A stretch of DNA of 26,850 bases from a virus: positions 1 to 26,850 of the IMG/VR virus record IMGVR_UViG_3300047548_000961. One strand, written 5' to 3'. The translations under genes were made by a program, and so were the position numbers. The notes beneath the pieces are model-generated. The model was not told the DNA's origin, searched no databases, and was given only the letters and a program-made list of their open reading frames with translations. This document shows, piece after piece, positions 969 through 24,350 of this stretch (its first letter is position 1; the number at the start of each line of letters is the position of its first letter).

Positions 969-987
969 GTTGTTGTTCTCCTGTTTA

Positions 988-2601: not shown

Positions 2602-2610
2602 ATAAAATCC

Positions 2611-5036: not shown

Positions 5037-5049
5037 TTGCAGAAAATCC

Positions 5050-9264: not shown

Positions 9265-9271
9265 TGCTACC

Positions 9272-10436: not shown

Positions 10437-10891
10437 AGGTCAGGTGCCTCCAAAGAGATTTTTACTATTTCCAGACGGTAAGGATTGCCGTCCAAGTAGG
10501 TGACAGTCGTTATTTGGGTCGGGACCGTGGTGTAGCGGAGAGCGCGGTAATTGGTGCCGCTTTGGTTGTTGGCGAACCATTCAGCAGCGAGGGCTTCGAT
10601 TTCGTCCACCTTGTCTTCTCTCTGTTTTTCGGTCAAGGGTTGGTTATCCTTGCCGTCGTACACCATGAAATGCAGCTCAAACTCAAAACGGTTGTCGTAT
10701 TTCTTTGCTCCCAAGCCGGCGATTTGGCGTTCGCTGCCTGCCGAGAGTATCAATACGACGGGACTTTCTCCGTTGAGCTGTCCGGGCTGGTAGCCAAAAA
10801 CGCTGGATACCGGCTTTCCGCTGCCGGCGATGGCAGTTGAGAGAGCTGCGGCGATTTCGTCGCGTACGGTTTTGCGTGAGATTACGGTCAT
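10433..10891 (-). CDS. Tail terminator / tail completion protein
   Basis: This encodes 152 residues. An N-terminal helix (SRKTVRDEIAAALSTAIA) is followed by alternating strands (SPVVLILSAGSERQ, then NRFEFELHFMVYDG) and a helix before a final strand, ITTVTYLDGNPYRLEIVKISLE. This alpha-beta layout and the place between a gp10-like neck protein and the tail tube fit the gpU/terminator family, whose hexamer caps the tube and joins it to the head. Translation is coupled on both sides by ATGA overlaps. The family assignment rests on fold pattern and order rather than on a unique motif. Confidence 0.75.
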   Translation of the reverse strand: MTVISRKTVRDEIAAALSTAIAGSGKPVSSVFGYQPGQLNGESPVVLILSAGSERQIAGLGAKKYDNRFEFELHFMVYDGKDNQPLTEKQREDKVDEIEALAAEWFANNQSGTNYRALRYTTVPTQITTVTYLDGNPYRLEIVKISLEAPDL

Positions 10892-11268
10892 GGTAGTAAG
10901 GACCTCAAATAAGAAAGTGCGCGTGATGCGAGTTGATCGCCGTTCCGCCAGGTTCGCTCATAGAAAGCGTGGCTTGAACCTCGTTCGTGTTCGTACGGTC
11001 CATAGACCGATGTCCTTTGCCCTGTGCGTGGATTTCTGGCGCTTTCGCTTAGATGAATAACGTAGCGAGCCGGTCCGGTGTAATCAATGACATGCGATGC
11101 ACGCATAGCGCCGGTGTCAACGTGGGAAAAAGAGATAGCCATGCGGTGTGCTTCAATCGCCATATACTGAACGGCACGACCAAGACCGTTGGAGGGCTTG
11201 ACCGCGGCTATCGTTTGCAAGGTCGCCCGTTGAGCTTCCTGAAGACCTTTGATTGTTATGCGGATCAT
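10888..11268 (-). CDS. HK97 gp10-like neck / head-tail joining protein
   Basis: This encodes 126 residues. The segments GRAVQYMAIEAHRMAISFSHVDTGAMR and YEHERGSSHAFYERTW match the HK97 gp10 pattern: an early helix, then H/P-V-D-T-G-A-(L/M)-R, then the Y-A/E-x-x-x-x-E-x-G-T/S loop and a trailing helix. These proteins sit at the head-tail interface or act in tail completion. The start overlaps the previous stop (ATGA), and GAGG lies ten bases upstream. It directly precedes the tail terminator gene, which agrees with the usual order. Confidence 0.85.
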   Translation of the reverse strand: MIRITIKGLQEAQRATLQTIAAVKPSNGLGRAVQYMAIEAHRMAISFSHVDTGAMRASHVIDYTGPARYVIHLSESARNPRTGQRTSVYGPYEHERGSSHAFYERTWRNGDQLASRALSYLRSLLP

Positions 11269-11600
11269 CGTTTCAGGTCCTCAATAACCACATGCACAAA
11301 ACCGCTTGTATCGCCGAGGAAGCATTGCTTCAGCTCGTGCGGAGTATCAAGTCCCATGCTGCTCGCCAGCTCTGCCGAAACAGGATCCAGCGGAGTACAG
11401 GTCAGATTTGACAGGTGGGTTGTGGCTGCGGTGCGTTTACCGGTGGCGTCGTCCTTCGTCGAGCGCTTGGTAGCGGCGGACAGGGAGGCGAGCCGGCGGA
11501 AGGTGGGCGTCACTTTCTGCCCGCTCCACTCTGCAACCGATTTGATGGGGTAATCCCGACCAGAGACAGTCAGGAGGTCGCCTTCGATAACGTCAAGCAT
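11265..11600 (-). CDS. Head closure / head-tail connector protein (second connector)
   Basis: This encodes 111 residues, beginning MLDVIEGDLLTVSGRDYPIKSVAEW, a small beta barrel opening typical of stopper or head-closure proteins whose first strand pair reads G-D-x-L-x-x-x-G-x-x-Y-x-I-x-S. It overlaps the first connector gene by eight bases and the gp10-like gene by four. Position between the adaptor and gp10-like genes supports the stopper role of closing the portal channel after packaging. The middle is unusually rich in Thr, Arg and Ala. Assigned by order and general pattern. Confidence 0.65.
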   Translation of the reverse strand: MLDVIEGDLLTVSGRDYPIKSVAEWSGQKVTPTFRRLASLSAATKRSTKDDATGKRTAATTHLSNLTCTPLDPVSAELASSMGLDTPHELKQCFLGDTSGFVHVVIEDLKR

Positions 11601-12048
11601 AGTAGGGATCGTCGTCGCCCTTCGTCTGGAAATTCAAGTTGATCTTGCCGGTGCTCAAACTGCCGAGCGAGACGCCGTACTCGCGCTGAATAAAGTCGCG
11701 CTTCTCGGCGATGGTTTTTTCCAGCTTGCCGGTGAAGTCGCTCAAATTCTCCGAGCGCGGACCGGTGGAGAAAGAGACCATGTCCATATTGCCGAGCACG
11801 GTTTCCAGCACGCGAAGCTCGCAGCGGTCGAGGAATTGATTGACCGCCGTTACGCCGGCGAGTTCTGCGTCGGTCGGGTTGGTGATGTCGGCGACGGTGT
11901 ACCCCATTGCTTGCAAAGTCGAGGCGATGGGATCGGCGAGGTCTTCATTTGTGCCGTCGTTGGTCGTGCCGTCCAGAGAGACGAACGCAAGCGATTTGCC
12001 GGCGCGGCGGATCATAACCTTTTCGACTTGGGTGCGGGTCAATGCCAT
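11593..12048 (-). CDS. Head-tail connector / adaptor protein (first connector)
   Basis: This encodes 151 residues, mostly helical, with the segments PTDAELAGVTAVNQFLDRCELRVLETVLGNM and GKLEKTIAEKRDFIQREYG. It comes just after the major capsid and its small companion gene and before the stopper-like gene, the normal place of the gp6/gp15-type adaptor that binds below the portal ring. The start at 12048 has GGAG about seven bases upstream. A stable hairpin (12068-12093) lies between it and the upstream gene. Assigned by helical content and gene order. Confidence 0.7.
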   Translation of the reverse strand: MALTRTQVEKVMIRRAGKSLAFVSLDGTTNDGTNEDLADPIASTLQAMGYTVADITNPTDAELAGVTAVNQFLDRCELRVLETVLGNMDMVSFSTGPRSENLSDFTGKLEKTIAEKRDFIQREYGVSLGSLSTGKINLNFQTKGDDDPYYA

Positions 12049-12067
12049 GAGCAGGCTCCATTGAGAA

Positions 12068-12093
12068 CGGGGCGGGATTGTTGTCCCGCCCCG
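12068..12093 (-). other. Intercistronic GC-rich hairpin
   Basis: A 10-bp perfect stem (CGGGGCGGGA pairing with TCCCGCCCCG) with a six-base loop lies between the capsid companion gene and the first connector gene. There is no T-run after it on either strand, so it is more likely an mRNA processing or stability element, or a weak attenuator between head and connector genes, than a full terminator. Confidence 0.6.
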
Positions 12094-12099
12094 CGTTGC

Positions 12100-12336
12100 T
12101 TACTTGTTCTTGCGGTTGCGCGGCTTGGCGTCTTCCGCCTCGCCGGCTTCGGGCTGCTCGCCTTCGGGATCGCCGGCTTCGGGGTTAGCGTCTTTGCCTT
12201 CGCCGGTAGGTTCTTCTTGCACAGGCTCGGTTTCCTCAAGGGACATACCGGAGGCTTTCAGCAAGAGATCGAGCTTGCGTTCGATGCGATCGAGCTGGGC
12301 TGCCTTGCGCTTTTCGAGGTGTTTCAGGGATGCCAT
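12100..12336 (-). CDS. Small coiled-coil/acidic protein after the major capsid gene
   Basis: This encodes 78 residues. Residues 1-32 form a charged helix with heptad-like leucines (LKHLEKRKAAQLDRIERKL), residues 33-70 are a disordered acidic Pro/Glu/Gly tract, and the last seven residues are basic (RNRKNK). An AGGTGGT sequence precedes the ATG by about five bases. It follows the major capsid gene by 13 bases. Similar small proteins next to capsid genes exist in many phages, but I cannot name a family. A head-associated role is only suggested by its place. Confidence 0.7.
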   Translation of the reverse strand: MASLKHLEKRKAAQLDRIERKLDLLLKASGMSLEETEPVQEEPTGEGKDANPEAGDPEGEQPEAGEAEDAKPRNRKNK

Positions 12337-12349
12337 GTGTCACCACCTA

Positions 12350-13402
12350 TTAGCGGGAGAAGCCGGTCGGGATGGAATAGGAACCACCCGTACCGAATTC
12401 GAGCACCACACCGTTCAAGCGGTTGGCAGCACCGAAACCGAAGCGGTGGGTGTAGTAGGAGGCGTTGAAGGGATACTTCTCGTCCTCTGCCACGAGCTGC
12501 AAACCACCAGCCAAACCGGTGTCAGCGGGATCTTCACGCATGAAGAGAGGCTTGGGGGCGTCGGCGTGGATGGCGATGGCGTAGTTCGTGGGCATGGAGC
12601 GCCATTCGACGATCCACACGCTATTCGCCACGCCGCGGATGCGTCCGGGCATGCCGGCGGGGAGACCAGTTACCTGGTCGGTGTTCGCGCCGGGGATAAC
12701 ATAGCGTTCATTGACCGGGTCGAAGTCAGCAAGGGCTTCGAGGTAATCGCAGATGGTGGGGGCGCCGAAGTGCTCTTCCAACTCATCGCGGACGGTCTTG
12801 GTCGGGTCGTTGGTATCGGAGATACCGGACGCGGCATAGTTCGTCTCGATGTAGTGGTTATCCGTGGCTTCGCTGTCAGAGCCGAGCACGGGCGGATAAA
12901 GCACGCTGTCACCATTGGCGAGCGGTTCGACCAAGAGGTCGCCGTAGATCTCGTCCTTGAAGGTCCATTGCGTGTTGTTGAAGAGCGCCTTCATGATCTG
13001 GCGGCGGACGGTGTTCAAGTCCGCGATCATGATGGTGTCGAGGTGCTTATTGAGCTGGGCGACAGTCATATAAGCGCGAGCCACGCGGTTGGCATTGAGA
13101 GCCGCGCCCCATTCTTGCAGGGGGAACGCAACGTCCCATTTCCCGTACGCCTTCATGGCACCGGGAGCGCCGCCCTGCGTGCTCATGGGTTCGAGGAAGC
13201 CGCCGCCGGGCAGTTCATAGCGGCGCTTGATGTCGGTCGTGACCTGTTCCACGAACAAGCCCATCGCCGACTGAAGTTCTGCATTGTGGCGGGCGAGTTC
13301 CGCCTGAACAGCCTCATAAACGAGTTGCTGTCCCATCGTGCGGATGTAGGTGCGTTCCGCTGCCGCTTCGGTGATACCGAGAGTTCCGAGAATACCGGAC
13401 AT
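12350..13402 (-). CDS. Major capsid protein
   Basis: This encodes 350 residues, starting at ATG 13402 behind AAGGAG. The order scaffold, decoration, this gene, connectors identifies it as the major capsid protein, probably with the HK97 fold. Features consistent with this are an N-terminal helix (residues about 12-60), a segment KWDVAFPLQEWGAALNANRVARAYMTVAQLN that could form the start of the P-domain, a long helix DLNTVRRQIMKALFNNTQW, and a beta-rich C-terminal half ending in VVLEFGTGG. There is no obvious prohead protease gene in the window, and assembly probably depends on the separate scaffold protein upstream. Confidence 0.88.
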   Translation of the reverse strand: MSGILGTLGITEAAAERTYIRTMGQQLVYEAVQAELARHNAELQSAMGLFVEQVTTDIKRRYELPGGGFLEPMSTQGGAPGAMKAYGKWDVAFPLQEWGAALNANRVARAYMTVAQLNKHLDTIMIADLNTVRRQIMKALFNNTQWTFKDEIYGDLLVEPLANGDSVLYPPVLGSDSEATDNHYIETNYAASGISDTNDPTKTVRDELEEHFGAPTICDYLEALADFDPVNERYVIPGANTDQVTGLPAGMPGRIRGVANSVWIVEWRSMPTNYAIAIHADAPKPLFMREDPADTGLAGGLQLVAEDEKYPFNASYYTHRFGFGAANRLNGVVLEFGTGGSYSIPTGFSR

Positions 13403-13429
13403 GATGTTGTCTCCTTATGGGGTCACCGA

Positions 13430-13846
13430 TTAGCCGGTGTACCCTTCGACTTTGAGGATTTTGGTAGCGGTGCCGTCTTCGCCGAAGCGGGCGGTAACAC
13501 GACCCACGACGAGGGAGGTGCCACCGGCGGCGTCGGCAAGCTCGCCGACGGTGTTCGACACATACACGAGACCGTCGAACGCCACACCGGAAAGGGTGTA
13601 GCCGTAGAGGTAGCCTTCTTCGAGAACGGAGACAGGCTGACCGGAGGCGACCGTATTCAGGGCAATGCCGCGGAACTGGTCTTTGGCGCTGTCATTAGCG
13701 TCAGCAGGGGCATACTTGCCGTTGCTGTCGATGTAAACCGGCTGACCGGCTTCGATGGCAGCGGACGCGATGCCGCTGACGATCTTGTTGGGGTAGTGCG
13801 GGTAAACAATGCTTACCTGCGCTGCGGTGCGAGTGATGTCGCTCAT
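13430..13846 (-). CDS. Capsid decoration protein (DUF2190-like)
   Basis: This encodes 138 residues of mostly beta sequence: AGQPVYIDSNGKYAPAD, FRGIALNTVASGQPVSVLEEG, then VVGRVTARFGEDG. The alternation of A-G-x-x-V-Y/V, then G-I-A-x-x-x-x-x-x-G-x-x-V is that of DUF2190/decoration-type barrels, which trimerise on the capsid surface and stabilise it. AAGGAG precedes the ATG by seven bases. It lies between scaffold and capsid genes, the usual place for this family. Confidence is high for the family and moderate for the actual role. Confidence 0.85.
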   Translation of the reverse strand: MSDITRTAAQVSIVYPHYPNKIVSGIASAAIEAGQPVYIDSNGKYAPADANDSAKDQFRGIALNTVASGQPVSVLEEGYLYGYTLSGVAFDGLVYVSNTVGELADAAGGTSLVVGRVTARFGEDGTATKILKVEGYTG

Positions 13847-13867
13847 GGATTTCTCCTTATTGGTTTG

Positions 13868-14578
13868 TTAGAGCCGGAGCGGAGGGCGTTTCACTTCTTC
13901 GCTCGGCGGGGTCTTCGGCAGCTTCGGGGGATTGCCGCCGCCGGGAGGGGTTCCCGGTCCTTTGGTGGTGCTGGTGGTTTGTTCCGCCAGCAAGTAGGGC
14001 TTGGCTTTCGCCAGAGCTTCCAGCGCCTTGTCAATGCCGGTGATCTTTCCGTCTTCGTCCTTGATTTCCGCACGCTCGATCAGGAGCGTCACATCTTCAA
14101 GGGCTTCGGGGCGGAAGGCGGCGCGGGTGACCTTGCCGTCCTTATCAAGCACTGGCTGGGATGCCAGCAACTTGATCTCGCCGTCCACGATGCGATTTTG
14201 CAGGGCTTCGGCTTCGGTCTTCTTTTCGGTTTCGAGGCGGTCGGCGCGTTGCTTCTCCGTTTCGGCTTTATCAGCCAACTTTTGGAGTTCGCTTTTGTTC
14301 GCGTCTTCCTGTTCCTTCTTCGCCTTCAAGTAGGCGTCCCATTCTTCTTGGGACTTGATACCGAGCGCTTCCCACAATTGCTTGCGGGTGCTTTCCTCTG
14401 CGCGTTTGGCGCGTTCGCCGGCGATCCGGTTGACTTCTTCTTGCGTGAGACCAGCATTACCCGTGCTGTTCGGTGGTGTCTGTCCGGTTCCCGGCGCTGG
14501 GTCGCCAGCCGGCGGGTCGCCGCCTTCGGTTCCTTTGAGAGCATCGAACAAGACAAAATTTTTACGAAACTTGAACAT
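13868..14578 (-). CDS. Capsid scaffolding protein
   Basis: This encodes 236 residues from ATG 14578, preceded by GGA in the usual window. A longer reading to 14683 would run through the terminator hairpin and is rejected. The protein has a Pro/Gly-rich N-terminal linker (about 18-42), a long Lys/Glu/Ala-rich coiled coil (about 43-125, with LQKLADKAETEKQRADRLE), then a helical part and a Pro/Lys/Thr-rich C-terminus. This is the typical profile of phage scaffolds (compare the GP20/DUF4355 type) that guide procapsid assembly and are then released. Its position before decoration and capsid genes agrees. Confidence 0.88.
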   Translation of the reverse strand: MFKFRKNFVLFDALKGTEGGDPPAGDPAPGTGQTPPNSTGNAGLTQEEVNRIAGERAKRAEESTRKQLWEALGIKSQEEWDAYLKAKKEQEDANKSELQKLADKAETEKQRADRLETEKKTEAEALQNRIVDGEIKLLASQPVLDKDGKVTRAAFRPEALEDVTLLIERAEIKDEDGKITGIDKALEALAKAKPYLLAEQTTSTTKGPGTPPGGGNPPKLPKTPPSEEVKRPPLRL

Positions 14579-14628
14579 GGGGTTTCCTTCCCGCCGTTTC
14601 CGCCGGCGTTGCGTGGGTTTCCCGCCTG

Positions 14629-14678
14629 AAAAACAAAAAAACCCGGAGGGCACAAAGAAAACTTTGTGCGCTCCGGGT
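14629..14678 (-). terminator. Rho-independent terminator between MuF and scaffold genes
   Basis: On the minus strand a 17-position stem with one C-C mismatch (ACCCGGAG/CTCCGGGT plus GCACAAAG/CTTTGTGC) closes a TTTT loop and is followed by a T-run broken by one G. This is a strong intrinsic terminator that would stop transcripts coming from the portal/MuF genes before scaffold and capsid. Readthrough or antitermination, or a promoter downstream, would be needed for the head genes. Confidence 0.85.
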
Positions 14679-14698
14679 ATCAATGCCTCGTCAAGCGG
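14675..14698 (-). repeat. Conserved leader block, copy A
   Basis: The block begins with GGGTATCAATGCCTC (plus-strand reading) and continues RTCARGCGG. It lies between a TATAAT box and a terminator stem. The second copy is at 18190-18213; only two of the 24 positions differ. Confidence 0.8.
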
Positions 14699-14724
14699 GT
14701 GGAATATTTGGTTGTCTGCGCGGC

Positions 14725-14737
14725 ATTATAGCGCGGT
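14725..14737 (-). promoter_or_regulatory. Candidate minus-strand promoter box ACCGCGCTATAAT
   Basis: This box begins one base after the MuF stop codon. It holds a perfect -10 hexamer, TATAAT, with the upstream ACCGCGC shared by two other intergenic boxes. No good -35 hexamer is found 16-18 bases upstream, so recognition would have to rely on the extended -10 or on an activator. A terminator follows about 50 bases downstream. Confidence 0.45.
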
Positions 14738-14738
14738 T

Positions 14739-15599
14739 TTATCCATAAGCATCTGCGGGGTGTCGGTCGGGGTAACGACCAGCAGCCCGCTCCGCAAGGA
14801 AGAAATCCGCGCCAGCTCGCATTTTTTCAGTCAGACCGTCATCGAAACCCGCAAGATAAAGAGCAACCGATGAACGGCAGTAGTAATGGAACGGTGTCCA
14901 GTCCATGAAATTAGAAAAACGGGGTGTTCCTGTAAGTTTGAACGGCTTGTCTAATGGCTGGATTTGGGCATGAGCTTCAAGACAGCAGTTCGTTGTCCGC
15001 TTATCGAGTGCGGCAATTACCTGTTTCGAAAATACAGTGTTGTTGGAGTTGTGACCAACCCAAGAATTGAACGAATTCCAAACCAATGTTGCGGCAAGGG
15101 AAGCGACCATCGGGGCGACATCTGAAGGTTTCAAGATGCCGGCTCGCTCATCGTCCCCGACAATCTGCACATCCTCCATGTCAGCGTACAACATAGCACG
15201 GACAGTCATGTCCTGAGCATCCACCCGAGCAAGCACCGCGTCCAGCATCGCCACAGAGGTCACTCGCTCATTGAGCAGGGTGCTTGTGCTTGGCTTGCTT
15301 TCGATGCCATAAAAACGGAGTTGTCGGGCAGCTTCATCGGCTCCGAGAAGTTGCGCGTCCAAAAAGAGAGACTGACTGCCGGCTTTGATGGTGTCGCGCA
15401 ATCCCTGAAATACATCGTGCGCGGCGATGATCCGGTTTTCCTCCTTGAGCGCGGCTTTCAAGGCTCGCCGGGCATTGCGGTAGGCAGTCAACACAAACCC
15501 GCGGGGGTGGTCAGAGGTGCCGGCTTGCGCGAACAGAGCACCGATGTCGTCGTTCATCCGCAGAGCGGATTTCTGAGCTTGTACAAGTGGGTTCGGCAT
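14739..15599 (-). CDS. MuF-type minor head protein
   Basis: This encodes 286 residues. The C-terminal half carries the Mu gpF signature: LDKRTTNCCLEAH (Cys205/Cys206, His210), then TPFHYYCRSSV (His238, Cys241), a pattern of paired Cys and His seen in SPP1 gp7/Mu gpF minor head proteins that bind the portal and enter the procapsid. The ATG overlaps the portal stop by one base (TAATG), giving coupled synthesis. It follows portal and precedes scaffold as in many siphoviruses. The classic spacing Cys-x-x-Cys is altered here to adjacent cysteines. Confidence 0.9.
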   Translation of the reverse strand: MPNPLVQAQKSALRMNDDIGALFAQAGTSDHPRGFVLTAYRNARRALKAALKEENRIIAAHDVFQGLRDTIKAGSQSLFLDAQLLGADEAARQLRFYGIESKPSTSTLLNERVTSVAMLDAVLARVDAQDMTVRAMLYADMEDVQIVGDDERAGILKPSDVAPMVASLAATLVWNSFNSWVGHNSNNTVFSKQVIAALDKRTTNCCLEAHAQIQPLDKPFKLTGTPRFSNFMDWTPFHYYCRSSVALYLAGFDDGLTEKMRAGADFFLAERAAGRYPDRHPADAYG

Positions 15600-17194
15600 T
15601 ATTCGATCTTGCGCGGATTGGTCATGGAGCCTTCGCCGGCGTTGAGTTTCTTCTGCGCGTCAATCGCCATGCGCTGGCTTTCGAGTTTCATCAGGTTTTC
15701 TTCCGAGTTCATGAATTCGTTGATCTGCTGTTCCGACCAACCCTGCTTTTGGAAGAACATTTTCATACCCGTCAAGCCGCCGGCGGTCTTGGCAGCGTTG
15801 GCGGCGGTCCAGAAGGCTTCCTCCACTTCGAGGTCATCGAGCGGGTCTTTGGCGAATACCGGGCGGTCGCCGATGGAGTGATCCAGCATGCCGGCGGCGT
15901 AGCTTTCGAGGTTATAGCCTTCAAAGGCGGAGTCGTAATTCCTCCACCCGGCGATGGCGATAGCCATTTGATGAGCACGAACAAGGGCTTTATCATAGTT
16001 CGGGCGGCGGTTCAACACGCGGTCGATGACTGGCTGGCGGTTGAGACGCAGAGCACGCGCCGACACATCGCCGGATGCGTTTTCAAGGTCTTCGGAGAGT
16101 TCCGGGTAATCACGCTCAATCTTGGCGACCAGCTTCTCGATGTTCTCGCCCGTGGCGGTGATGTCCAGCGTCGAGACCAGCGGGTTCGCAGTTGCGCCAA
16201 GCGGTCCGTAGATTGCCGGCATGTCTTCGCGTCCCGCTTCCGGGTTGTCTTCGGTAGGCGTGCTGACCGGTACCGTCGTCCCTGTGGACGAGCCGGAGAC
16301 GCCGGCGAAGAACCACACCGAATTGACCATCTTGCGGATTTGGTCGTTCAAGAGCGAGGCTTGGTCGTCCACTTCGCGGAAGTTCGACAAGCCGGCATGC
16401 AGTTCCGACCAGCCCCATGGCAATCCCATGTTACGGTGACGGATAAAGACCATCGGGATGAACGTGTAGTTGATGGAATATTCTGCGAGGTCATTCGCCC
16501 ACGGATAAAGTGAGCCGTTGAGGTAGGTTCGGTACACCACGGCGTCGCCGGCGCGGGTCACTTCCTCTCGGTAGGTGACCGGTCTGCCGTTTACGGGATC
16601 GGGTCGGCTTTCTTCGAGGACATATTCCTTCACGTTGCCCCAGGTGTCGATCTCCAATTCCTTGATTTTTCCCGGGTGTAGCGGCATCATGTACACGCGC
16701 TTTTTCTCGCTGTCGTCCATGATCTTGATGAATGTATCACCCAGCACAGAACCGCGCAGGGTAACCACGTCCTTCTCGCTTTGCCAGTTCGACCATTCCC
16801 AAACTTTCGAAATGGCGGTGCGAAGTTTCGGGTCTTCGGTCTTGGTGATGATCGGGAGCGCCGACGGCACGGATTTCCCGTCGCCGGCAGCCGGGTCCAG
16901 CAAGCCGCCCCAAAGATGCGCCTGCCAGAAATCACCCAGCCGGAAGGCGGGCGATTGCACGGCGCGGATGAAGCGGTACAGCCCGAAGGTGGTCTTATAG
17001 GATTGCGCCCATGTGTGAACGTCGCGGTAGGCGGTGTTTTCATACATCGCCCACAAAATGGCGTAGCGAAGGGAGCGCCCATCGAACGTGTTGAAATCCT
17101 CGTTCCAGTTGAACGATTTGGTGGAGGTGTAGGTCTCCCGAAATGCTTTACTTGCCGCCATAAGCGATCTCCATGTGCGTTGCAAAAGGTTCAT
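15599..17194 (-). CDS. Portal protein
   Basis: This encodes 531 residues from ATG 17194, which has AGGA six bases upstream; an ATG at 17200 would leave no spacing. The place between terminase and MuF genes, the size, and segments such as GDAVVYRTYLNGSLYPW and PLVSTLDITATGENIEKLVAKIERDYPELSEDL fit the phage portal family, including a C-terminal helical region beginning DVSARALRLNRQPVIDRV that is characteristic of the SPP1-like type. Twelve copies would form the DNA channel and dock the terminase. The C-terminus is rich in Glu, Gln and Met. Confidence 0.92.
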   Translation of the reverse strand: MNLLQRTWRSLMAASKAFRETYTSTKSFNWNEDFNTFDGRSLRYAILWAMYENTAYRDVHTWAQSYKTTFGLYRFIRAVQSPAFRLGDFWQAHLWGGLLDPAAGDGKSVPSALPIITKTEDPKLRTAISKVWEWSNWQSEKDVVTLRGSVLGDTFIKIMDDSEKKRVYMMPLHPGKIKELEIDTWGNVKEYVLEESRPDPVNGRPVTYREEVTRAGDAVVYRTYLNGSLYPWANDLAEYSINYTFIPMVFIRHRNMGLPWGWSELHAGLSNFREVDDQASLLNDQIRKMVNSVWFFAGVSGSSTGTTVPVSTPTEDNPEAGREDMPAIYGPLGATANPLVSTLDITATGENIEKLVAKIERDYPELSEDLENASGDVSARALRLNRQPVIDRVLNRRPNYDKALVRAHQMAIAIAGWRNYDSAFEGYNLESYAAGMLDHSIGDRPVFAKDPLDDLEVEEAFWTAANAAKTAGGLTGMKMFFQKQGWSEQQINEFMNSEENLMKLESQRMAIDAQKKLNAGEGSMTNPRKIE

Positions 17195-17210
17195 AGCCAT
17201 TCCTGTGGCT

Positions 17211-17555
17211 TTATAGTCTCTTTAGTTGGTCGAGTTCAGCCCGCAGCCGGCGGATCTCCGACTCCTGCTTGTGCGTGAGGTCTTCGAGTTCCTTGATGCG
17301 CGTGTCCTTCTGTTCGATGGTTTCGCGCAATTCAACGATCTGCTGCTTTTGTTCCTTGACTTCGCTTTCGAGGTTGAGAATGTCGGCTTTTAGAGTTTTC
17401 TCACGCGCCGCCGAAGCCGCAGCCATTTCAGCGTACAGCTTGGCTGTCTCCGCTTCGAGTTTGTCTTTTTCGGAGGCTGATTTTTTCCTGTTATCGTAGG
17501 AATAAATAATGTTGATGATTAGCCCAATAAATAGGGCGATAATTTCCCAATTCAT
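17211..17555 (-). CDS. Membrane-anchored coiled-coil protein (spanin-like or structural)
   Basis: This encodes 114 residues. Residues 3-20 (WEIIALFIGLIINIIYSY) form one membrane segment with the N-terminus outside, and residues about 28-113 are a continuous coiled coil rich in Glu, Lys, Leu, Ala. That topology is shared with the inner-membrane spanins (Rz-like) and with some small holin-associated proteins. The Shine-Dalgarno is weak (GAG six bases upstream). It lies between portal and a three-helix membrane protein. Spanin is only one possibility: no partner lipoprotein is visible. Confidence 0.75.
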   Translation of the reverse strand: MNWEIIALFIGLIINIIYSYDNRKKSASEKDKLEAETAKLYAEMAAASAAREKTLKADILNLESEVKEQKQQIVELRETIEQKDTRIKELEDLTHKQESEIRRLRAELDQLKRL

Positions 17556-17575
17556 GATGTGCTCGTGGATGCCAT

Positions 17576-17603
17576 AAAGCCGGAGCGGTCAGGCTCCGGC
17601 TTT
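17576..17603 (-). terminator. Intergenic hairpin, possible weak terminator
   Basis: An 11-bp perfect stem (AAAGCCGGAGC with GCTCCGGCTTT) and six-base loop lies in the 61-base gap between two membrane-protein genes. Only three or four T residues follow on either strand, so termination would be partial in either direction. Confidence 0.55.
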
Positions 17604-17616
17604 TGTTGACATTGGG

Positions 17617-18093
17617 TTATCTGTCGTATTGGACACTGATGTTCTCGGTAGGGCTAGGTCCCTCGAACACGGAGATCATCGTGCCGGCAAGACGACCGGA
17701 GTACGACTGCCCGATGACGGGGATGCCGGCGAGCACTTCCTCGTGACCCTTGCGGGATGCCCACAAGCCGTAAGCGAGGGCAAGCAGCGAGCCGATGGCG
17801 TTGGCGATCAAGCCGGCAGACTGGTCAAAGACGGGAACAAGGTCAGAGCGTCCGGTGACTTGCAAGGTAACGAGGGTGATCAGGGTCAGGACTTGGAAAA
17901 TGAGGTTGTATTTCGGGGCGGAGTTGTCGGGGAACCATTCGGGCTTCAGGAGCTTGCCGGCGTTGATGACTGCGGCGAACAGGAGTGCGAAGCCGGTCAG
18001 CGTGGCTCCGGTTTTGGCGAGTTCCTGCAACCATGCGATGATTGCGAAGAGCGGGCGCCGGCGCGGCGTGAACGGCAGCGAAGGGCAGGACAA
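17617..18093 (-). CDS. Holin-like membrane protein, reading frame disrupted near its start
   Basis: This frame, open from a TTG at 18093, gives up to 158 residues with three hydrophobic segments: LTGFALLFAAVINAGKLL, YNLIFQVLTLITLVTLQV and GLIANAIGSLLALAYGLW. No ribosome binding site precedes the TTG and no ATG is available at the front of this frame. Thirty-seven bases upstream, an ATG at 18130 with GGAG encodes a textbook signal peptide in another frame (MKKYFLLVLLFVFVLPFA, then VHA). The natural product is probably that signal peptide joined to this frame by a +1 shift or by correcting an indel. The topology is holin-like; the exact role is not established. Confidence 0.6.
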   Translation of the reverse strand: MSCPSLPFTPRRRPLFAIIAWLQELAKTGATLTGFALLFAAVINAGKLLKPEWFPDNSAPKYNLIFQVLTLITLVTLQVTGRSDLVPVFDQSAGLIANAIGSLLALAYGLWASRKGHEEVLAGIPVIGQSYSGRLAGTMISVFEGPSPTENISVQYDR

Positions 18094-18130
18094 ACACGAA
18101 AAGCAGAACGAGCAGGAAGTACTTTTTCAT
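18045..18130 (-). pseudogene. Signal-peptide exon-like start of the disrupted membrane gene (other frame)
   Basis: ATG 18130 follows GGAG eight bases upstream. It encodes Lys-Lys, a 15-residue Leu/Val/Phe core and an A-V-H-A type cleavage site, then A-P-A-P. After this point the frame turns Arg/His-rich and ends at 17843, typical of a shadow frame, while the neighbouring frame becomes a sensible membrane protein. One base out of phase somewhere between about 18045 and 18090 explains both. The CCC-G-CTC sequence near 18055 would restore the frame if one G were skipped. Confidence 0.55.
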
Positions 18131-18148
18131 TTGGGGTCTCCGTTTCGG

Positions 18149-18189
18149 AAAAAATAAAGGGCAGCCGAGACGGTTGTCTCGACTGCCCT
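18149..18189 (-). terminator. Rho-independent terminator downstream of the terminase genes
   Basis: On the minus strand a 14-bp stem (AGGGCAGTCGAGAC with GTCTCGGCTGCCCT, one G-U pair) with a four-base loop is followed by TTTATTTTTT. It would stop transcripts from the terminase operon before the membrane-protein and portal genes. Confidence 0.85.
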
Positions 18190-18213
18190 GGGTATCAATG
18201 CCTCATCAGGCGG
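18190..18213 (-). repeat. Conserved leader block, copy B
   Basis: This is the second copy of the block at 14675-14698 (plus-strand start GGGTATCAATGCCTC, then RTCARGCGG). Here too it sits between a TATAAT box and a terminator stem. Confidence 0.8.
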
Positions 18214-18222
18214 TCGCTGTAA

Positions 18223-18235
18223 ATTATAGCGTGGT
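18223..18235 (-). promoter_or_regulatory. Candidate minus-strand promoter box ACCACGCTATAAT
   Basis: The box overlaps the stop codon of the 69-residue gene by one base. It has a perfect TATAAT and differs at one position from the boxes at 14725 and 20871. No convincing -35 hexamer is visible at the usual distance. A terminator begins about 35 bases downstream. Confidence 0.45.
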
Positions 18236-18444
18236 TACTCTTGCAATTTCAGGTATTTCGGGCGGATGATGTGCTCCGCCTTCATGTCGGCAGCCCTGCC
18301 CTCTTTCACTTCGATGATGATGGTCCCGTGTCCCGTCCCCTCCTGCCGGATGATCTCCAATGCGAACAGGAACGCGACGATCTCCCTGCGGGTCTCTTCG
18401 TCCACGCCATCGAACTTGATTTTTGGAAGTACCACATTCGTCAT
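18235..18444 (-). CDS. Small hypothetical protein following the large terminase
   Basis: This encodes 69 residues, mixed alpha/beta: VVLPKIKFDGVDEETRREIV, a helix FLFALEIIRQE, then a beta strand TIIIEVKEGR. GAGG lies eight bases before the ATG, inside the terminase stop region; the two genes are separated by four bases. I recognise no family. Being the last gene before a strong terminator, it belongs to the terminase transcription unit. A packaging accessory role is possible but unproven. Confidence 0.7.
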   Translation of the reverse strand: MTNVVLPKIKFDGVDEETRREIVAFLFALEIIRQEGTGHGTIIIEVKEGRAADMKAEHIIRPKYLKLQE

Positions 18445-18448
18445 AATA

Positions 18449-20140
18449 CTAGCCTCGGTATCCTGAAAGCGGCGAGCGGGCTACCTGCAAGCCGGTTCCG
18501 GTTTGCGTGTTGGCGAACGTCAAACACAGGCTGTCCGCCTTATCCGGTGAGCGTCCGAGCATTTCCCGCATGGTGTCTTTGTCGGTGACCCTGATTTTAC
18601 CGCCTCTGACAGAATATAGGGGCGTTGTCAACTCTTCGATCAGGTCGTCGTCCGGCGGGATCATTGCATAGCTGGGATGGTTCGGCTCGTCTCTCAGCCA
18701 TTCCCGACACGACCACCACAACTCATCCCGAAGCTGGAAGAACTGCCCCATTTCGGTTTCGTACGTCGGCGAGCTGGCGACCTTCACGCTCTCGGCGATT
18801 GTCGTCCGGTCGTGCCGGCTCTTTTCTCCTGCAATGCGATTGATGCGGGTTGCAATACCGGAGCCGATACCAGTAGCGTCTACTCGCAATGTGACAACCC
18901 ACCCGCTACGCCCGATGTAATCATAGGCTTTGAGTGCGGTACTGTCTGTGTCCAAGCCTTGCCAGCGTTCCATTTTTGGTACCCAGCCCCCGAAGCGGAA
19001 GGTTAGGACGTTCCAGTCCTTCCCGTACTCCGAGACATCCAAGCCGGCGAGCGCGTTATCCGTCGGCGGCTTCTCGCCGTGCATGGCAACGTAGGTCAGC
19101 CAGCGCGAGACCGCGGCGTCCACCCATGCGCGGGAGATGAGCTGTGTCTCTGCCTGCGGAGGATACACCCCGAGCACCATGTAGAAAAACGCCGGGTTCA
19201 GCACCTTGCGCCAGCCGGGCGGGAGAGGCGTGTACTCGGTGCCGGCGTGCGAGCGGGCGGTCGTGCCGACCAAGTAGTCGGGAAGCTCGAAGCACTCCTG
19301 ATCGGGCTTCTCGTCAGGAGCCAGCGGGCGCGTCCACTCGTTGATGCGGCGCACGGTCGTCTCCCGATCCACAGCGCCGGAGAAGATTTCTTTGCCTGTT
19401 ACGACATTGGGATGCACCAATGCCGACAGGGTGACGACGTTACCGAGCTTCTTCTTCTCCATCTGCGCCACGGGACCGTATTCACCGCGTGGGTTGAACA
19501 TGACCAGAAGCCGGGCATTACCGCCGGACATACAGCTTTCGATGCCCTTGTACACCTCGACCGGCACGGCGTCGCCTTCGTCCACGATGAACAGCAGGTT
19601 CGGCGCGTGCTTGCCGGCAAACTTCGCCTGCCGGTGTTCCGGCGTCCCGGTCGTCGGGATGGTGACGCCGGTCAGAAATTCGAGGGAGCTGCGCTTGATG
19701 TTGAGGTCGCGGGTGATCCGGTCGTCTCTGAAGACGTCCGGGTGCTTTTCGATAATGGAGCCGATCTCGCCCCACAGGATTTTTTCAAGGTGGCTTTCCG
19801 TCGGCGCGGTCGTGTAGACCTGGCTGTTCGGGTAGCTTTTGTAGAACCATGCCGCGATGCGGGCGGCGGCGTGCGACTTGCCGACGGCGTTGGCGCTCTT
19901 GGCGATGGTGACCGGGTTGTCGCGCACACTTTCCATAACGCGAACAATGTCCTCGGTGTAGCTTTCACCGAAGACTTCGATACCGAAGGCGTGGGGGTCA
20001 CGCTGGTATTTCTCGTATTTATTTGCCGGATGCTGGGGGTTGGTTCCCTGCTGGCGCATCTTCAGGAGCAGAGCTTGTGCCTGCAATTGGTAAGACTGAA
20101 GCTGGGCTTTCTCCGGCGTTAAGCCTGAAGATCTGCTCAT
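18449..20140 (-). CDS. terL: Terminase large subunit
   Basis: This encodes 563 residues. The ATPase half has a Walker A variant SANAVGKS (82-89), with Thr/Ser pattern typical of TerL, and Walker B LLFIVDE (182-188). The nuclease half has RNase H-fold acidic residues: GLDVSEYGKD (Asp368), VDATGIGSG (Asp421) and SPDKADSL (Asp536). The protein pumps DNA into the prohead and cuts it. The ATG at 20140 has no clear Shine-Dalgarno and lies 122 bases inside the small terminase gene, pointing to coupled translation; Met28 (20059) is an alternative start, also within the overlap. Confidence 0.95.
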   Translation of the reverse strand: MSRSSGLTPEKAQLQSYQLQAQALLLKMRQQGTNPQHPANKYEKYQRDPHAFGIEVFGESYTEDIVRVMESVRDNPVTIAKSANAVGKSHAAARIAAWFYKSYPNSQVYTTAPTESHLEKILWGEIGSIIEKHPDVFRDDRITRDLNIKRSSLEFLTGVTIPTTGTPEHRQAKFAGKHAPNLLFIVDEGDAVPVEVYKGIESCMSGGNARLLVMFNPRGEYGPVAQMEKKKLGNVVTLSALVHPNVVTGKEIFSGAVDRETTVRRINEWTRPLAPDEKPDQECFELPDYLVGTTARSHAGTEYTPLPPGWRKVLNPAFFYMVLGVYPPQAETQLISRAWVDAAVSRWLTYVAMHGEKPPTDNALAGLDVSEYGKDWNVLTFRFGGWVPKMERWQGLDTDSTALKAYDYIGRSGWVVTLRVDATGIGSGIATRINRIAGEKSRHDRTTIAESVKVASSPTYETEMGQFFQLRDELWWSCREWLRDEPNHPSYAMIPPDDDLIEELTTPLYSVRGGKIRVTDKDTMREMLGRSPDKADSLCLTFANTQTGTGLQVARSPLSGYRG

Positions 20141-20890: not shown

Positions 20891-21160
20891 TCATAGCCGA
20901 ATGGCGAAGACCTCGACCGGGTCGGGTCCAAAGTGCTCGTGAGTGATGATTTTGCGGGTGTATCCCCTCCACGGTCTCACGATGCGCTTGCTTTCATCGC
21001 CTCGCGCCGGGTATCCAAGCAGTAAAACAACCCGGTCATACGTTCTGCGCTCGATGCGTTTGATCCAATGCTCGGTCACCTTGCGGTATTCTTCGGTCTT
21101 GGTGCCGGCTTTGATCTCTTCAAAGTAGACCCGCTTCAGGTGTAGGACAAGGTCGGTCAT
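20891..21160 (-). CDS. ASCH-domain protein
   Basis: This encodes 89 residues. The opening LHLKRVYFEEIKAGTKTEEYR is the signature of the ASCH fold (a PUA-like beta barrel that binds RNA or modified nucleotides), with the conserved Lys-x-x-x-x-x-x-(G/A)-x-K-x-x-E-x-R pattern; a later G-Y-P segment and the C-terminal strand PVEVFAIRL complete it. It is the last gene of a three-gene unit, overlapping the acidic protein by four bases (ATGA). ASCH proteins often process or sense nucleic acid modifications, which fits a PAPS-reductase-like neighbour. Confidence 0.85.
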   Translation of the reverse strand: MTDLVLHLKRVYFEEIKAGTKTEEYRKVTEHWIKRIERRTYDRVVLLLGYPARGDESKRIVRPWRGYTRKIITHEHFGPDPVEVFAIRL

Positions 21161-21585
21161 TTCGTGTCCAGTGCAATGTCCACGTATTCGCGGTCAAAAG
21201 GTCGGTGCTTCGGCATTTCGGGGATGCGGCTGGTCAGTTTCACGCCCATCACCTTTGCCGCTTCCATGCCGTCTATGTACTTGTCACCGAGGTCAAGCAG
21301 CTTCAACTTGGCGAGGAATTCCTCTTTCTGCTCGCGGGTCTGAAAGCACAACGCGACCCAATATTCGCTGTCAGTGGCATCCAAAAACCGCTGATTTTCA
21401 CGCTTCGAGCGCTCTTTGAAGCCATCCAGAACAGCCGAAAGGTCTTCCTTCGGAGCTTCCTGCATGGCGTCGGCTCCCATTGGCTCTTCCTGATCACCGT
21501 CATCGAAGCCGGCAATGTCGGGAAGTTGGATCTCCGGTATTTCGATCTCTGGAATTTCTGCAACGGGTTTGTTTTTCTTAGCCAT
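21157..21585 (-). CDS. Acidic phage protein between PAPS-reductase-like and ASCH genes
   Basis: This encodes 142 residues from ATG 21585, chosen because AGGAG lies seven bases upstream; the longer reading to 21636 lies within the PAPS-reductase gene. Residues about 9-22 hold a short repeat (EIPEIEIPEI), followed by an acidic linker. The folded part, about 55-142, contains DSEYWVALCFQTREQKEEFL and GVKLTSRIP, a pattern found in small proteins that travel with phage PAPS-reductase-like genes, but with no known function. It overlaps both neighbours by a few bases (ATGGCTAA and ATGA). Confidence 0.8.
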   Translation of the reverse strand: MAKKNKPVAEIPEIEIPEIQLPDIAGFDDGDQEEPMGADAMQEAPKEDLSAVLDGFKERSKRENQRFLDATDSEYWVALCFQTREQKEEFLAKLKLLDLGDKYIDGMEAAKVMGVKLTSRIPEMPKHRPFDREYVDIALDTK

Positions 21586-22300
21586 GGTTCTGCTCCTGAT
21601 AATATCTCTCGCGGTACTCGATGCGTTTGAGTTCAAGTTCTGCGAGGGGGAAAAATTCGAGAATTTTCTTATAGTCGGCGGGGAATTTCTCTTTGAGAGG
21701 CTTCAAAAAGCGATAGTCCACCCCATCGAACGAACGCCCGAACATGCGGTAATCGACCGGCAGGCGCACTTTTGCGGCGCGGAGTTCCTGCACCATCATC
21801 GCCTTTGTGTAGTCAAAGACGGGGAAGAAGCTCTTCTTGCTCTCGTTGAGCGGTCCGTGCGTCTTGATCGAAACCCAGCGGGCGATGCTGTCACGAGCGC
21901 GGACGCCGGTGCCGGCATACGTGTTCTCCGGCAGCCCCAGCTCCTGCCGAACGACCGCGAAGATGTCCTCGTATTCGAAATTCGGCAGCATGGCATTTTC
22001 GATCACCGCGCAATTCTCCGGCGCTTGAAACGTCAGGTTGTTGAGCTGGCGGTAAAGCGACGGGTGCGGCATGCGCAAGATTTTTGTCTTGAAAAACTTC
22101 TCGTAATAGCGCAATCCCATTTCCACGAATTCGAGGTCGGGGATGAGGTACATATAGACCGGGGTGATTTTTTTGAAATGCCGGCGCATTTGCAACCAAG
22201 CGACCACGCTGTCCTTACCGGTGGAAAATGCCAAAAGGGCTTGACCATCGGAGATTTTGGCTACATGCCTGTTTAATTGGGTGGATGTCTCAAATTGCAT
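21578..22300 (-). CDS. PAPS-reductase-like adenine nucleotide alpha hydrolase
   Basis: This encodes 240 residues. The PP-loop FSTGKDSV (25-32) is the ATP-pyrophosphatase motif of the PAPS reductase/DndC family, with GVRARDS (132-138) as a later conserved loop and FPVFDYTKAMM (159-169) beyond it. These enzymes adenylate a substrate or handle sulfate/sulfur; phage versions are often linked to DNA or tRNA thio-modification. There is no Cys-rich iron-sulfur site, so full DndC function is not indicated. GGTGAGG lies a few bases before the ATG. It is the first gene of the minus-strand unit divergent from the amidoligase operon. Confidence 0.88.
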   Translation of the reverse strand: MQFETSTQLNRHVAKISDGQALLAFSTGKDSVVAWLQMRRHFKKITPVYMYLIPDLEFVEMGLRYYEKFFKTKILRMPHPSLYRQLNNLTFQAPENCAVIENAMLPNFEYEDIFAVVRQELGLPENTYAGTGVRARDSIARWVSIKTHGPLNESKKSFFPVFDYTKAMMVQELRAAKVRLPVDYRMFGRSFDGVDYRFLKPLKEKFPADYKKILEFFPLAELELKRIEYRERYYQEQNHG

Positions 22301-22395: not shown

Positions 22396-22424
22396 TTGAC
22401 ATATTACAGCGCACGCGCTATAAT
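22396..22424 (+). promoter_or_regulatory. Consensus sigma70-type promoter of the amidoligase operon
   Basis: TTGACA (22396-22401) and TATAAT (22419-22424) are separated by exactly 17 bases, matching both consensus hexamers. It is the strongest promoter signal in the window and reads into the amidoligase gene, whose ATG is at 22472. A dyad occupies the spacer (22408-22419). Confidence 0.9.
22408..22419 (+). promoter_or_regulatory. Operator-like dyad AGCGCACGCGCT inside the promoter spacer
   Basis: Five-base arms AGCGC and GCGCT flank AC. The dyad fills the spacer between -35 and -10, where a bound repressor would block polymerase. A near copy, AGCGTACACGCT, lies at 23908 in the same operon. 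Confidence 0.55.
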
Positions 22425-22471
22425 ATTTTTACGCTCATATGAAGCGAACACAAATTTTTAGGAGAAAACGA

Positions 22472-23239
22472 ATGACCACCACCACACGCAAGGCATCAGA
22501 AATCAAGTTCGGAATTGAAATCGAAGCAAGCATCCCGAATGAATACCGCGAAATGTTCCAAACTGGTCGCTATCACGGCGGTTTGGCTGTCAACCATGAG
22601 CACTTCGGCAATGACTGGACTGTTCAGTCAGATAGCTCTGTCCGCTCTGGACGCGGTTATTTTGCGGCTGAAATTGTGAGCAATCCGCTTCAAGGCGAAG
22701 CCGGCTTAATCAAAGTGGTCGAAATGTTGGACTTCCTGAAGTCCATCGGCGCGAAAGTCAATGCTTCCTGCGGTTTGCATGTCTATGTGGACAGCGCGGG
22801 AGTATCCCTCACCCGCTTGGTCAAACTCTTCAAGTCTTATGAAATGGCTTTCTACGATATGAACGGCAAGAACAGCAACAAGCGCTTAAACAGCCGATTT
22901 TGCAAGCCTTCCTCCCGCTGGACTGGCGACCGCTATGCCAGCCTCAACCTCGCCCATGCCCACGATGTAAACCCTCACATCGAAATCCGCGTATGGCAGG
23001 GAGCGATGAAACCCGAAACCGTGGTCGCCGCTATCTACATGGCAGTCGCCCTTGTCGCCCGCGCCAGCATGGAAGAGAAGGTCAAGGTCTCCGATGTGAA
23101 CGCCAGCAAGCCGACCCAAATCATGGCGCAATTCATTCGCCGAATGATGGACGAAAACACCATGATTGTGCCCGACCTGAAACCCGCTGACATCTGGCAG
23201 GAAATGATGAAAGCGGCTCTGAGTAGCGACCGCCGATAA
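22472..23239 (+). CDS. Amidoligase-family enzyme (Amidoligase_2-like)
   Basis: This encodes 255 residues from ATG 22472, which has AGGAG eight bases upstream; the in-frame ATG at 22439 has none. The motifs are those of the glutamine-synthetase-like amidoligase family: FGIEIE (13-18), WTVQSDSSV (49-57), EIVSNP (67-72), CGLHVYVD (100-107) and HIEIRVWQGA (169-178). The Glu and His residues of these motifs would bind Mg-ATP. Family members join carboxyl and amino groups, forming peptide or isopeptide bonds. It heads the only plus-strand operon, before a class I glutamine amidotransferase. The substrate is unknown: protein, small metabolite or modified base are all possible. Confidence 0.9.
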   Translation: MTTTTRKASEIKFGIEIEASIPNEYREMFQTGRYHGGLAVNHEHFGNDWTVQSDSSVRSGRGYFAAEIVSNPLQGEAGLIKVVEMLDFLKSIGAKVNASCGLHVYVDSAGVSLTRLVKLFKSYEMAFYDMNGKNSNKRLNSRFCKPSSRWTGDRYASLNLAHAHDVNPHIEIRVWQGAMKPETVVAAIYMAVALVARASMEEKVKVSDVNASKPTQIMAQFIRRMMDENTMIVPDLKPADIWQEMMKAALSSDRR

Positions 23240-23250
23240 ACGAAAAATGA

Positions 23251-23272
23251 GGGGGCTGGGAAACCAGCCCCC
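23251..23272 (+). other. Intercistronic hairpin with GAAA tetraloop
   Basis: A 9-bp perfect stem (GGGGGCTGG with CCAGCCCCC) is closed by GAAA, a stable GNRA loop. No T-run follows; a Shine-Dalgarno (AAGGA) begins three bases later for the GATase gene. It probably tunes mRNA stability or translation between the two enzymes. Confidence 0.65.
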
Positions 23273-23284
23273 AAAGGATAAACG

Positions 23285-23902
23285 ATGAGCACAGTAACGA
23301 AAATAGCATTATGCCCCGGCACTGAGACCGAAACCGCGAAAAGTATTATGAAGCGTCTCGGCGTGCGGGTTGAAATCGCAACACCCAAGAATATCCATTC
23401 TGTGAAGTATGACGGGCTTCTCCTGCTCGGCGGGCGTGACGTCAACCCGTGGTTCTACGGCGAGAGCATCAAGTGGGCGCAGCGCCCAGACCGTGACCGC
23501 GACATTATCGAGTGGCAGTTGATCCGCCGCGCCATGACCCGCCAAATTCCGATTTTTGGTATCTGTCGAGGGCATCAGATGATCACCGTAGCGCATGGCG
23601 GTTCTTTGTATCAGGACATCCACCACGACGGCGTGACCTTTGACCATCCAGACCGCCACCGCGTCACGCTGTCAGGCAATCTTGCGAAGCATACCGCCAG
23701 CGATAATGTCAACAGTTACCACCATCAGGCAGTCCGCAGAGTACCCGACGGCTTCAAGGTGCTTGCGAAATCCACCGACGGCGTCGTCGAGGCAATATAC
23801 AAGCCGGGGGTTCTCGGTGTGCAATGGCATCCCGAAATGATGTACAAGACTGATAGCCGATGGATTGAGTTGTTCCGCTGGTTTGTGGATGGGTTGGAGT
23901 AA
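23285..23902 (+). CDS. Class I glutamine amidotransferase / gamma-glutamyl hydrolase (C26)
   Basis: This encodes 205 residues. The nucleophile elbow GICRGHQM (Cys94), the LLLGGRDVNP loop (46-55) and GVQWHPEM (His182, Glu184) give the Cys-His-Glu triad and oxyanion parts of peptidase family C26, as in gamma-glutamyl-GABA hydrolase PuuD. The D-V-N-P after GG is typical for the PuuD type rather than for amidotransferase domains of synthetases. Such an enzyme could cleave a gamma-glutamyl bond made by the upstream amidoligase or supply ammonia. AAGGA precedes the ATG by six bases. The gap to the amidoligase is 45 bases. Confidence 0.92.
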   Translation: MSTVTKIALCPGTETETAKSIMKRLGVRVEIATPKNIHSVKYDGLLLLGGRDVNPWFYGESIKWAQRPDRDRDIIEWQLIRRAMTRQIPIFGICRGHQMITVAHGGSLYQDIHHDGVTFDHPDRHRVTLSGNLAKHTASDNVNSYHHQAVRRVPDGFKVLAKSTDGVVEAIYKPGVLGVQWHPEMMYKTDSRWIELFRWFVDGLE

Positions 23903-23907
23903 AATCC

Positions 23908-23919
23908 AGCGTACACGCT
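23908..23919 (+). promoter_or_regulatory. Second operator-like dyad AGCGTACACGCT
   Basis: Arms AGCGT and ACGCT flank AC. It shares C-AGCG-Y-AC-R-CGCT-A with the promoter dyad at 22408 and lies five bases after the GATase stop, before the HTH gene. Confidence 0.5.
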
Positions 23920-23927
23920 AAAACAAA

Positions 23928-23950
23928 GCCCCAGCCGTTACGGCTGGGGC
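23928..23950 (+). other. Intercistronic hairpin before the HTH gene
   Basis: A 10-bp perfect stem (GCCCCAGCCG with CGGCTGGGGC) with a three-base loop is directly followed by AAGGAG, the Shine-Dalgarno of the next gene. There is no T-run. The layout repeats that of the hairpin at 23251. Confidence 0.65.
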
Positions 23951-23962
23951 AAGGAGACTGCA

Positions 23963-24169
23963 ATGACTGAAAATTTCTACAACACGACCGAAGCCGGCAG
24001 GCTGACAGGCAAGAAGCCTGTCACCGTCCGCCAATTGGCGAAGACCCACAACATCGGCACCCGCGTCGGCAGGGATTGGGTCTTCACCGAAGCCGACATC
24101 GAACGCCTGAAAGCCATCCCGAAACCGGGACGCCCAGCCGGCAAGACTACGAAGGCTTCCCGCGGGTAG
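23963..24169 (+). CDS. Small MerR/excisionase-like HTH DNA-binding protein
   Basis: This encodes 68 residues. YNTTEAGRLTGKKPVTVRQL (about 6-25) and GRDWVFTEADIERLKAI (36-52) follow the winged helix-turn-helix of the HTH_17/excisionase type, where a helix-turn-helix is followed by R-x-W-x-F/I-x-x-x-D-I-x-x-(Y/L). The C-terminal tail PKPGRPAGK contains a GRP core like an AT-hook minor-groove binder. AAGGAG lies six bases before the ATG. As third gene of the amidoligase operon it may regulate that operon through the dyads at 22408 and 23908. It overlaps the end of a convergent gene by 23 bases. Confidence 0.85.
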   Translation: MTENFYNTTEAGRLTGKKPVTVRQLAKTHNIGTRVGRDWVFTEADIERLKAIPKPGRPAGKTTKASRG

Positions 24170-24350
24170 CGGTTCCAGCAAGCGCCAGAGCTTCCAGCCT
24201 GGCGCGTTCTTTTTTGGGCATGTCGTTATGTTGCCTCAAGAGGGTATTGGCTTCGTCACTCACTTCTTCGGCACTGTAAATGCCGACCTCGTACCCTTTT
24301 TCAAGAGCTGTGATTTTCCCGCGAAGCACCGTCAATAATGTATCGTCCAC
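24147..24350 (-). CDS. Small hypothetical protein, GTG start
   Basis: This encodes 67 residues. The start GTG at 24350 has GGAG six bases upstream and a TATAAT box 38 bases upstream, so it probably begins a transcript. The protein is helical: ALEKGYEVGIYSAEEVSDEA and NDMPKKERARLEALALAG, with mixed charge and no membrane segment. I recognise no family. Its end is convergent with and overlaps the HTH gene by 23 bases, so the two mRNAs could pair there. Confidence 0.65.
   Translation of the reverse strand: MDDTLLTVLRGKITALEKGYEVGIYSAEEVSDEANTLLRQHNDMPKKERARLEALALAGTATRGKPS

Follow-up and report, generated by a model that had tools for sequence, protein, structure and literature searches.

Amidoligase genes of phages have been described in clusters that also encode class-II GATases, COOH-NH2 ligases, ATP-grasp enzymes and GGCT (PMC3890496, PMC10580990), and amidoligase and GGCT genes have been annotated in prophages of Clostridium clostridioforme (PMC11318856). 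In the Puu system of E. coli, the repressor PuuR acts on both the puuAP and the puuDRCBE operons (PMC9397018). The LUZ24-like, Zobellviridae (PA11, CW02), OM43-phage and phiEco32 clusters resemble the locus studied here in combining an Amidoligase_2 enzyme with a glutamine-amidotransferase partner, and GGCT is often present in them. PafA and Dop form a ligate/cleave pair acting on a Glu side chain, and the structure model suggests that they have a glutamine synthetase (GS)-like superfamily fold in common with the amidoligase described below, at a sequence identity of only about 10%.

The DNA analysed here (the window) comprises 26,850 bases and makes up a complete IMG/VR record. A sequence-only reading had proposed that a promoter-driven set of amidoligase, GATase-fold and helix-turn-helix (HTH) genes lies within it, and this set is present at 22396-24169, with a perfect promoter and profile scores above the cut-offs. 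The sigma-70 consensus promoter (TTGACA-17-TATAAT, 22396-22424, + strand) matches at 12/12 positions, and 300 shuffles gave none equally good. It is followed on the + strand by genes for an Amidoligase_2 enzyme (22472-23239), a class-I GATase-fold Peptidase C26 protein (23285-23902) and a 68-aa HTH_17/MerR-like DNA-binding protein that is probably an autoregulator (23963-24169). The amidoligase ORF can be read from 22439, but the start at 22472 is the most likely, since AGGAG lies just 5′ of that ATG and the relatives align from there. Past the HTH gene, the + strand has an intrinsic-terminator-like hairpin and T run (about 24182-24215, with a fold z of only −1.8), which fall within the 3′ part of a convergent gene; an analogous terminator-like hairpin lies 3′ of the HTH gene in the related contig L007. 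Two further GC-rich hairpins were observed inside the cassette, a stable one between the amidoligase and C26 genes (23251-23272; −22.5 kcal/mol, z −6.3) and another 5′ of the HTH ribosome-binding site (23928-23950). Both are terminator-like on the minus strand, where alone they have T runs, and so could stop antisense transcription from the right-hand genes.

This gene content sets the cassette apart from the described systems. Published phage amidoligase-GATase pairs had been invoked as precedent, and the families do recur, but those pairs mainly involve a class-II (Ntn) GATase with a COOH-NH2 ligase and ATP-grasp enzymes; neither the class-II GATase nor the COOH-NH2 ligase was found in this clade. 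The class-II GATase (PF13522) was found in 5/5 Zobellviridae-like records against 0/9 from the window clade, and the COOH-NH2 ligase (PF14395) in 5/5 against 0/10. A search for an ATP-grasp partner with the R2K_3 family alone returned nothing in the window clade. Furthermore, the amidoligase lies 1.5-5 kb from the C26-type gene in the Zobellviridae-like clusters, whereas in the window cassette the two are neighbours or nearly so. In the phage and prophage pairs of amidoligase with gamma-glutamyl cyclotransferase the cleaving enzyme is GGACT rather than C26, and one relative of the window, L096, has both. Compared with PafA and Dop, no Pup-like protein was seen and the cutter is an unrelated C26 enzyme. 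By analogy, the cassette may share the logic of PuuA, PuuD and PuuR, namely an ATP-dependent gamma-glutamylating ligase, a gamma-glutamyl hydrolase and a repressor; however, the Puu ligase belongs to PF00120 and that of the cassette to PF12224, and PuuB, PuuC, PuuE and PuuP have no counterpart in it. The 68-aa HTH_17 regulator is also unlike PuuR, which has a separate effector domain. With the class-II GATase, the COOH-NH2 ligase, PF00120 and the oxidation steps all missing, the cassette appears to be a new, minimal variant of the known phage amidoligase clusters.

The enzyme-family assignments made from the sequence held up against both profiles and folds. The amidoligase scores 57.2 bits against PF12224 (cut-off 22 bits), while PF00120 (Gln-synt_C) matched neither the window nor its relatives. 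A sequence search of the PDB with the amidoligase profile gave nothing convincing, and a structure model was therefore built (AF2 pLDDT 94.7), for which the best PDB fold matches by Foldseek were glutamine synthetase, PafA, Dop and YbdK (TM about 0.5). All 16 positions that are invariant across 42 homologues (window included), E16, E18, E67, H103, E171 and R173 among them, are present, and the protein carries the GS-like motifs FGxExE, D-x-S, E-x-x-S, G-x-H and E-x-R. Loss of the ATP-binding Glu/His residues, which would have spoken against the proposal, was not seen by alignment; the core is intact save for position 105, the second His of GxHxH, which is His in 40/42 homologues and Tyr in the window. 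Activity of the amidoligase could be lowered or changed by this substitution of a near-invariant residue.

The C26 protein scores 151 bits against PF07722 (cut-off 20.5) and 75 bits against PF00117, its model is of high confidence (AF2 pLDDT 97.2), and the triad Cys94-His182-Glu184 is intact and invariant. An NCBIfam scan passed no cut-off. By both sequence and fold, the nearest PDB entries were lin1909, SpuA and PuuD, ahead of the GMP synthase GATase. The protein is thus closer to the PuuD/SpuA gamma-glutamyl hydrolases than to ammonia-donating GATases, and is a predicted gamma-glutamyl hydrolase.

The third gene scores 29.4 bits against HTH_17 (PF12728, cut-off 27), with weak resemblance to excisionase and MerR proteins. 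The inverted repeat AGCGCACGCGCT takes up the promoter spacer as far as the −10 box (22408-22419; palindrome score P = 0.01 against shuffles), forming a putative operator, and a second putative operator, AGCGTACACGCT, lies ahead of the HTH gene (23908-23919). The motif AGCGYRCRCGCT has only these two sites in the entire window, even when one mismatch is tolerated. In four relatives (L012, L095, L096 and L190) the sequences differ, yet each genome's own motif precedes both its amidoligase and its HTH gene, and the amidoligase-side motif matches the HTH-side motif of the same genome (p = 0.0006 over all permutations of genomes); the shared-motif signal was absent from L092 and L013. This pattern supports one regulator that would act at two putative sites, most simply the HTH protein itself. 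It also qualifies the earlier proposal of a single promoter for the operon: the consensus promoter is there, but a separate putative operator copy precedes the HTH gene, which in several relatives also has an apparent promoter of its own, so that “one promoter” may be too simple.

An exact-peptide search with the window amidoligase alone returned nothing, an alignment of two sequences being required to find relatives, and a scan of genome contigs with the amidoligase gave no relative. A terminase search yielded a 52-kb contig (L007, identical to L012), whose amidoligase, C26 and HTH proteins are 47%, 56% and 57% identical to those of the window and whose cassette occupies the same place, divergent from the same PAPS-reductase-like gene. 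Alignment-based scans then added L011, L013, L092, L093, L094, L095, L096 and L190. Altogether, the three-gene set was found in seven other viral contigs at about 30-57% identity (31-57% for the HTH partner), in most cases with a PAPS-reductase-like gene diverging from it. In the window, L012, L013, L092, L094, L095, L096 and L190, the amidoligase and C26 genes are both intact and adjoin or are one or two small genes apart, with an HTH-coding stretch nearby in every case. Failure of the three genes to co-occur in related phages, which would also have spoken against the proposal, was thus not seen, and the recurrence of the set in several other phages marks the cassette as a genuine unit. That it is a self-contained module with its own regulator is likewise supported, and the joint conservation of the three genes far exceeds chance.

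The order within the unit is not rigid. A zinc-ribbon-like gene is inserted in the L007 cassette, and GGACT plus one gene in that of L096; the HTH gene of L094 is upstream and divergent; and in L092 the HTH-coding stretch is about 1 kb farther downstream, with an N6-methylase-like gene (PF02384, 23.6 bits; L092:6679-7566) between it and C26. L011 ends before the C26 position. L093 keeps C26 and HTH with an amidoligase reduced to its C-terminal third; having lost most of that gene, it indicates that the amidoligase/C26 pair is not strictly inseparable. Dense, interspersed short repeats were observed on both sides of the amidoligase gene in L190 (5340-5620 and 6496-6870, TTCCTGGGGCCATT-like) and in L011 (2897-2985 and 4160-4306, CTGGATGGGTCAAGATGCCC-like).

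The association between the two enzymes was also quantified. Their pairwise identities show the correlation (Mantel p 0.006) that co-inheritance would produce. All of the viral C26 genes at least about 46% identical to that of the window or its relatives (9/9) lie beside an amidoligase or its remnant. An amidoligase lies within about 7 kb of 20/37 viral C26 loci against 1/80 cellular ones, the sole cellular case being the viral contig L093 inside a MAG; the Fisher p of about 2e-11, and that of about 2e-8 with the window clade excluded, are optimistic because the loci are related to one another.

Outside the cassette, the window genes recognised by similarity are all on the minus strand, and to that extent the earlier description of the cassette as running against the rest of the phage stands. 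However, an overlapping contig (G010), 99.6-100% identical over window 1-19853, adds 16.7 kb of the phage leftwards, and this extension is a + strand replication block with helicase-like (from its sequence), sigma-70-family and actin-like (ParM/ALP) genes, so that the cassette opposes the late genes and not the whole phage. The cassette has the layout of a moron, with its own promoter and putative terminator, inversion relative to the flanking late genes, and accessory status among relatives, the last based on four TerL relatives (L006 and L008-L010) that are fragments and were without the cassette in the parts examined. The divergent PAPS-reductase-like (PP-loop) gene (21578-22300, minus strand, phrog_2302) is beside the cassette in most relatives and is also found in L006, L008 and L009, where no cassette was seen; it is probably outside the cassette proper. 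Together with a linked 159-aa gene (phrog_9353), it makes up a stretch at 21157-22300 that accompanies the cassette in most relatives and occurs without it too; in L094 the two genes lie 3′ of C26 on the same strand.

A tyrosine integrase was found in three relatives only, and none in the 43.5 kb available for the window phage. The actin-like ParM/ALP gene (L221:5076-6062; PF17989, 44 bits) lies near its replication genes, and together with the lack of a tyrosine integrase in 43.5 kb this hints at plasmid-like maintenance. The window and G010, otherwise near-identical, differ in the major capsid gene, where 36 bp are missing in the window between 8-bp direct repeats (GGTGGGGG; window 12755-12762, about 9440-9480 in L222, i.e., G010), giving a protein of 350 aa rather than 362 aa; either the gene underwent an in-frame deletion in nature or the difference arose in assembly. 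A Chloroflexota host, suspected from neighbouring proteins, was rejected after 400 genomes gave distant amidoligases only and no TerL match. Among relatives of MAG SURF_36 there was nothing close.

We consider the chances about even that the two enzymes of the cassette form a gamma-glutamyl amide module under feedback control. In this reading, the amidoligase would use ATP to couple a carboxylate (the gamma-carboxyl of glutamate is the likeliest) to an amine on an acceptor that may be a wall peptide, polyamine, protein or other molecule; the C26 enzyme would hydrolyse gamma-glutamyl amides, so that the adduct is removed or trimmed in a protecting-group or reversible-adduct logic like that of PuuA/PuuD; and the HTH protein would probably repress the unit via the inverted repeat between −35 and −10 and the other copy, which precedes the HTH gene itself. 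Of this, the substrate (gamma-glutamyl), the flux direction and the repression by the HTH protein are what we infer from the locus. GGACT provides a further line of evidence: it was present in 13/40 records searched (39 of them with an intact or remnant amidoligase or in the window clade) and lay within 3 kb of the amidoligase in 11/13 (1.9 expected, p about 1e-8), and in L096 it is placed between amidoligase and C26 in one operon (86 bits). Since two unrelated gamma-glutamyl-cleaving families, C26 and GGACT, recur beside phage amidoligases, the likely product is a gamma-glutamyl amide, which would be the simplest common denominator if genome linkage is a guide to substrate. The make-and-trim or make-and-reverse cycle put forward from the sequence consequently survives as the likeliest reading of the chemistry, on the strength of the PuuD/SpuA-like C26 and the GGACT linkage.

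The likelihoods that we attach to chemistries and to physiological roles concern separate questions, and there is no reason for them to add up to one. For the role, it is possible, though we would not favour it, that modification of the host wall or surface blocks superinfection, with an envelope peptide altered so that competing phages cannot adsorb; this would fit either the gamma-glutamyl chemistry or the ammonia transfer considered next. Iyer et al. 2009, as cited in PMC10580990 and PMC11318856, put forward such a function for amidoligases of the phiEco32 type. The three relatives with a tyrosine integrase look temperate, which makes a prophage-expressed moron plausible for them, and the cassette is moron-like in layout. 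Against this, the window phage has no such integrase in its 43.5 kb, the cassette shows no gene specific to the wall, and PADLOC returned no match for either enzyme. Nor did PADLOC support identity as a defence system, its only match being a weak mad1-like one for the HTH protein.

The main challenge to the gamma-glutamyl reading on chemical grounds is that a C26-like protein could have been taken on as a glutaminase subunit. The C26/GATase protein would then pass ammonia from glutamine to the amidoligase, which would amidate a carboxylate, e.g., in peptidoglycan precursors as in MurT/GatD. The class-I GATase fold with its intact triad, the immediate pairing of the genes and the class-II glutamine amidotransferases of published phage amidoligase clusters (PMC10580990, PMC3890496) are in keeping with this. 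However, the C26 protein matches the PuuD/SpuA branch and not the synthetase-coupled GATases, and GGACT, the other frequent partner of phage amidoligases, has no glutaminase role; we consider ammonia transfer unlikely.

Somewhat less probable still is an auxiliary nitrogen metabolism in which the pair shifts nitrogen among glutamate, glutamine and amines and thereby feeds phage production. This has been proposed for phage ZRK32, with amidoligase, glutamine amidotransferase, glutathione synthase and GGCT (PMC10945688), and the PuuA/PuuD-like logic is catabolic (PMC9397018), but the cassette is without the PuuB and PuuC oxidation steps needed for amine use and its ligase is not of PF00120. We also doubt, slightly more strongly, that the module serves reversible tagging, in which the amidoligase would add gamma-glutamyl to a macromolecule of the host, whether protein or wall peptide, and the dedicated C26 would take it off again; C26 and GGACT would be erasers that can stand in for one another in different phages, and the repressor would set the dose. 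A chance neighbourhood of three unrelated accessory genes, to which the near-loss of the amidoligase in L093 and the rearranged HTH gene in L094 might point, is very improbable given conservation of the set in the window and seven contigs at about 30-57% identity with correlated divergence (Mantel p 0.006).

Returning to the gamma-glutamyl module, phage amidoligases are widespread, and among those met in this analysis no natural unit was smaller than this pair of enzymes with a promoter and regulator of its own. The repeated pairing of these ligases with gamma-glutamyl-cleaving C26 or GGACT enzymes narrows their likely product to a gamma-glutamyl amide.
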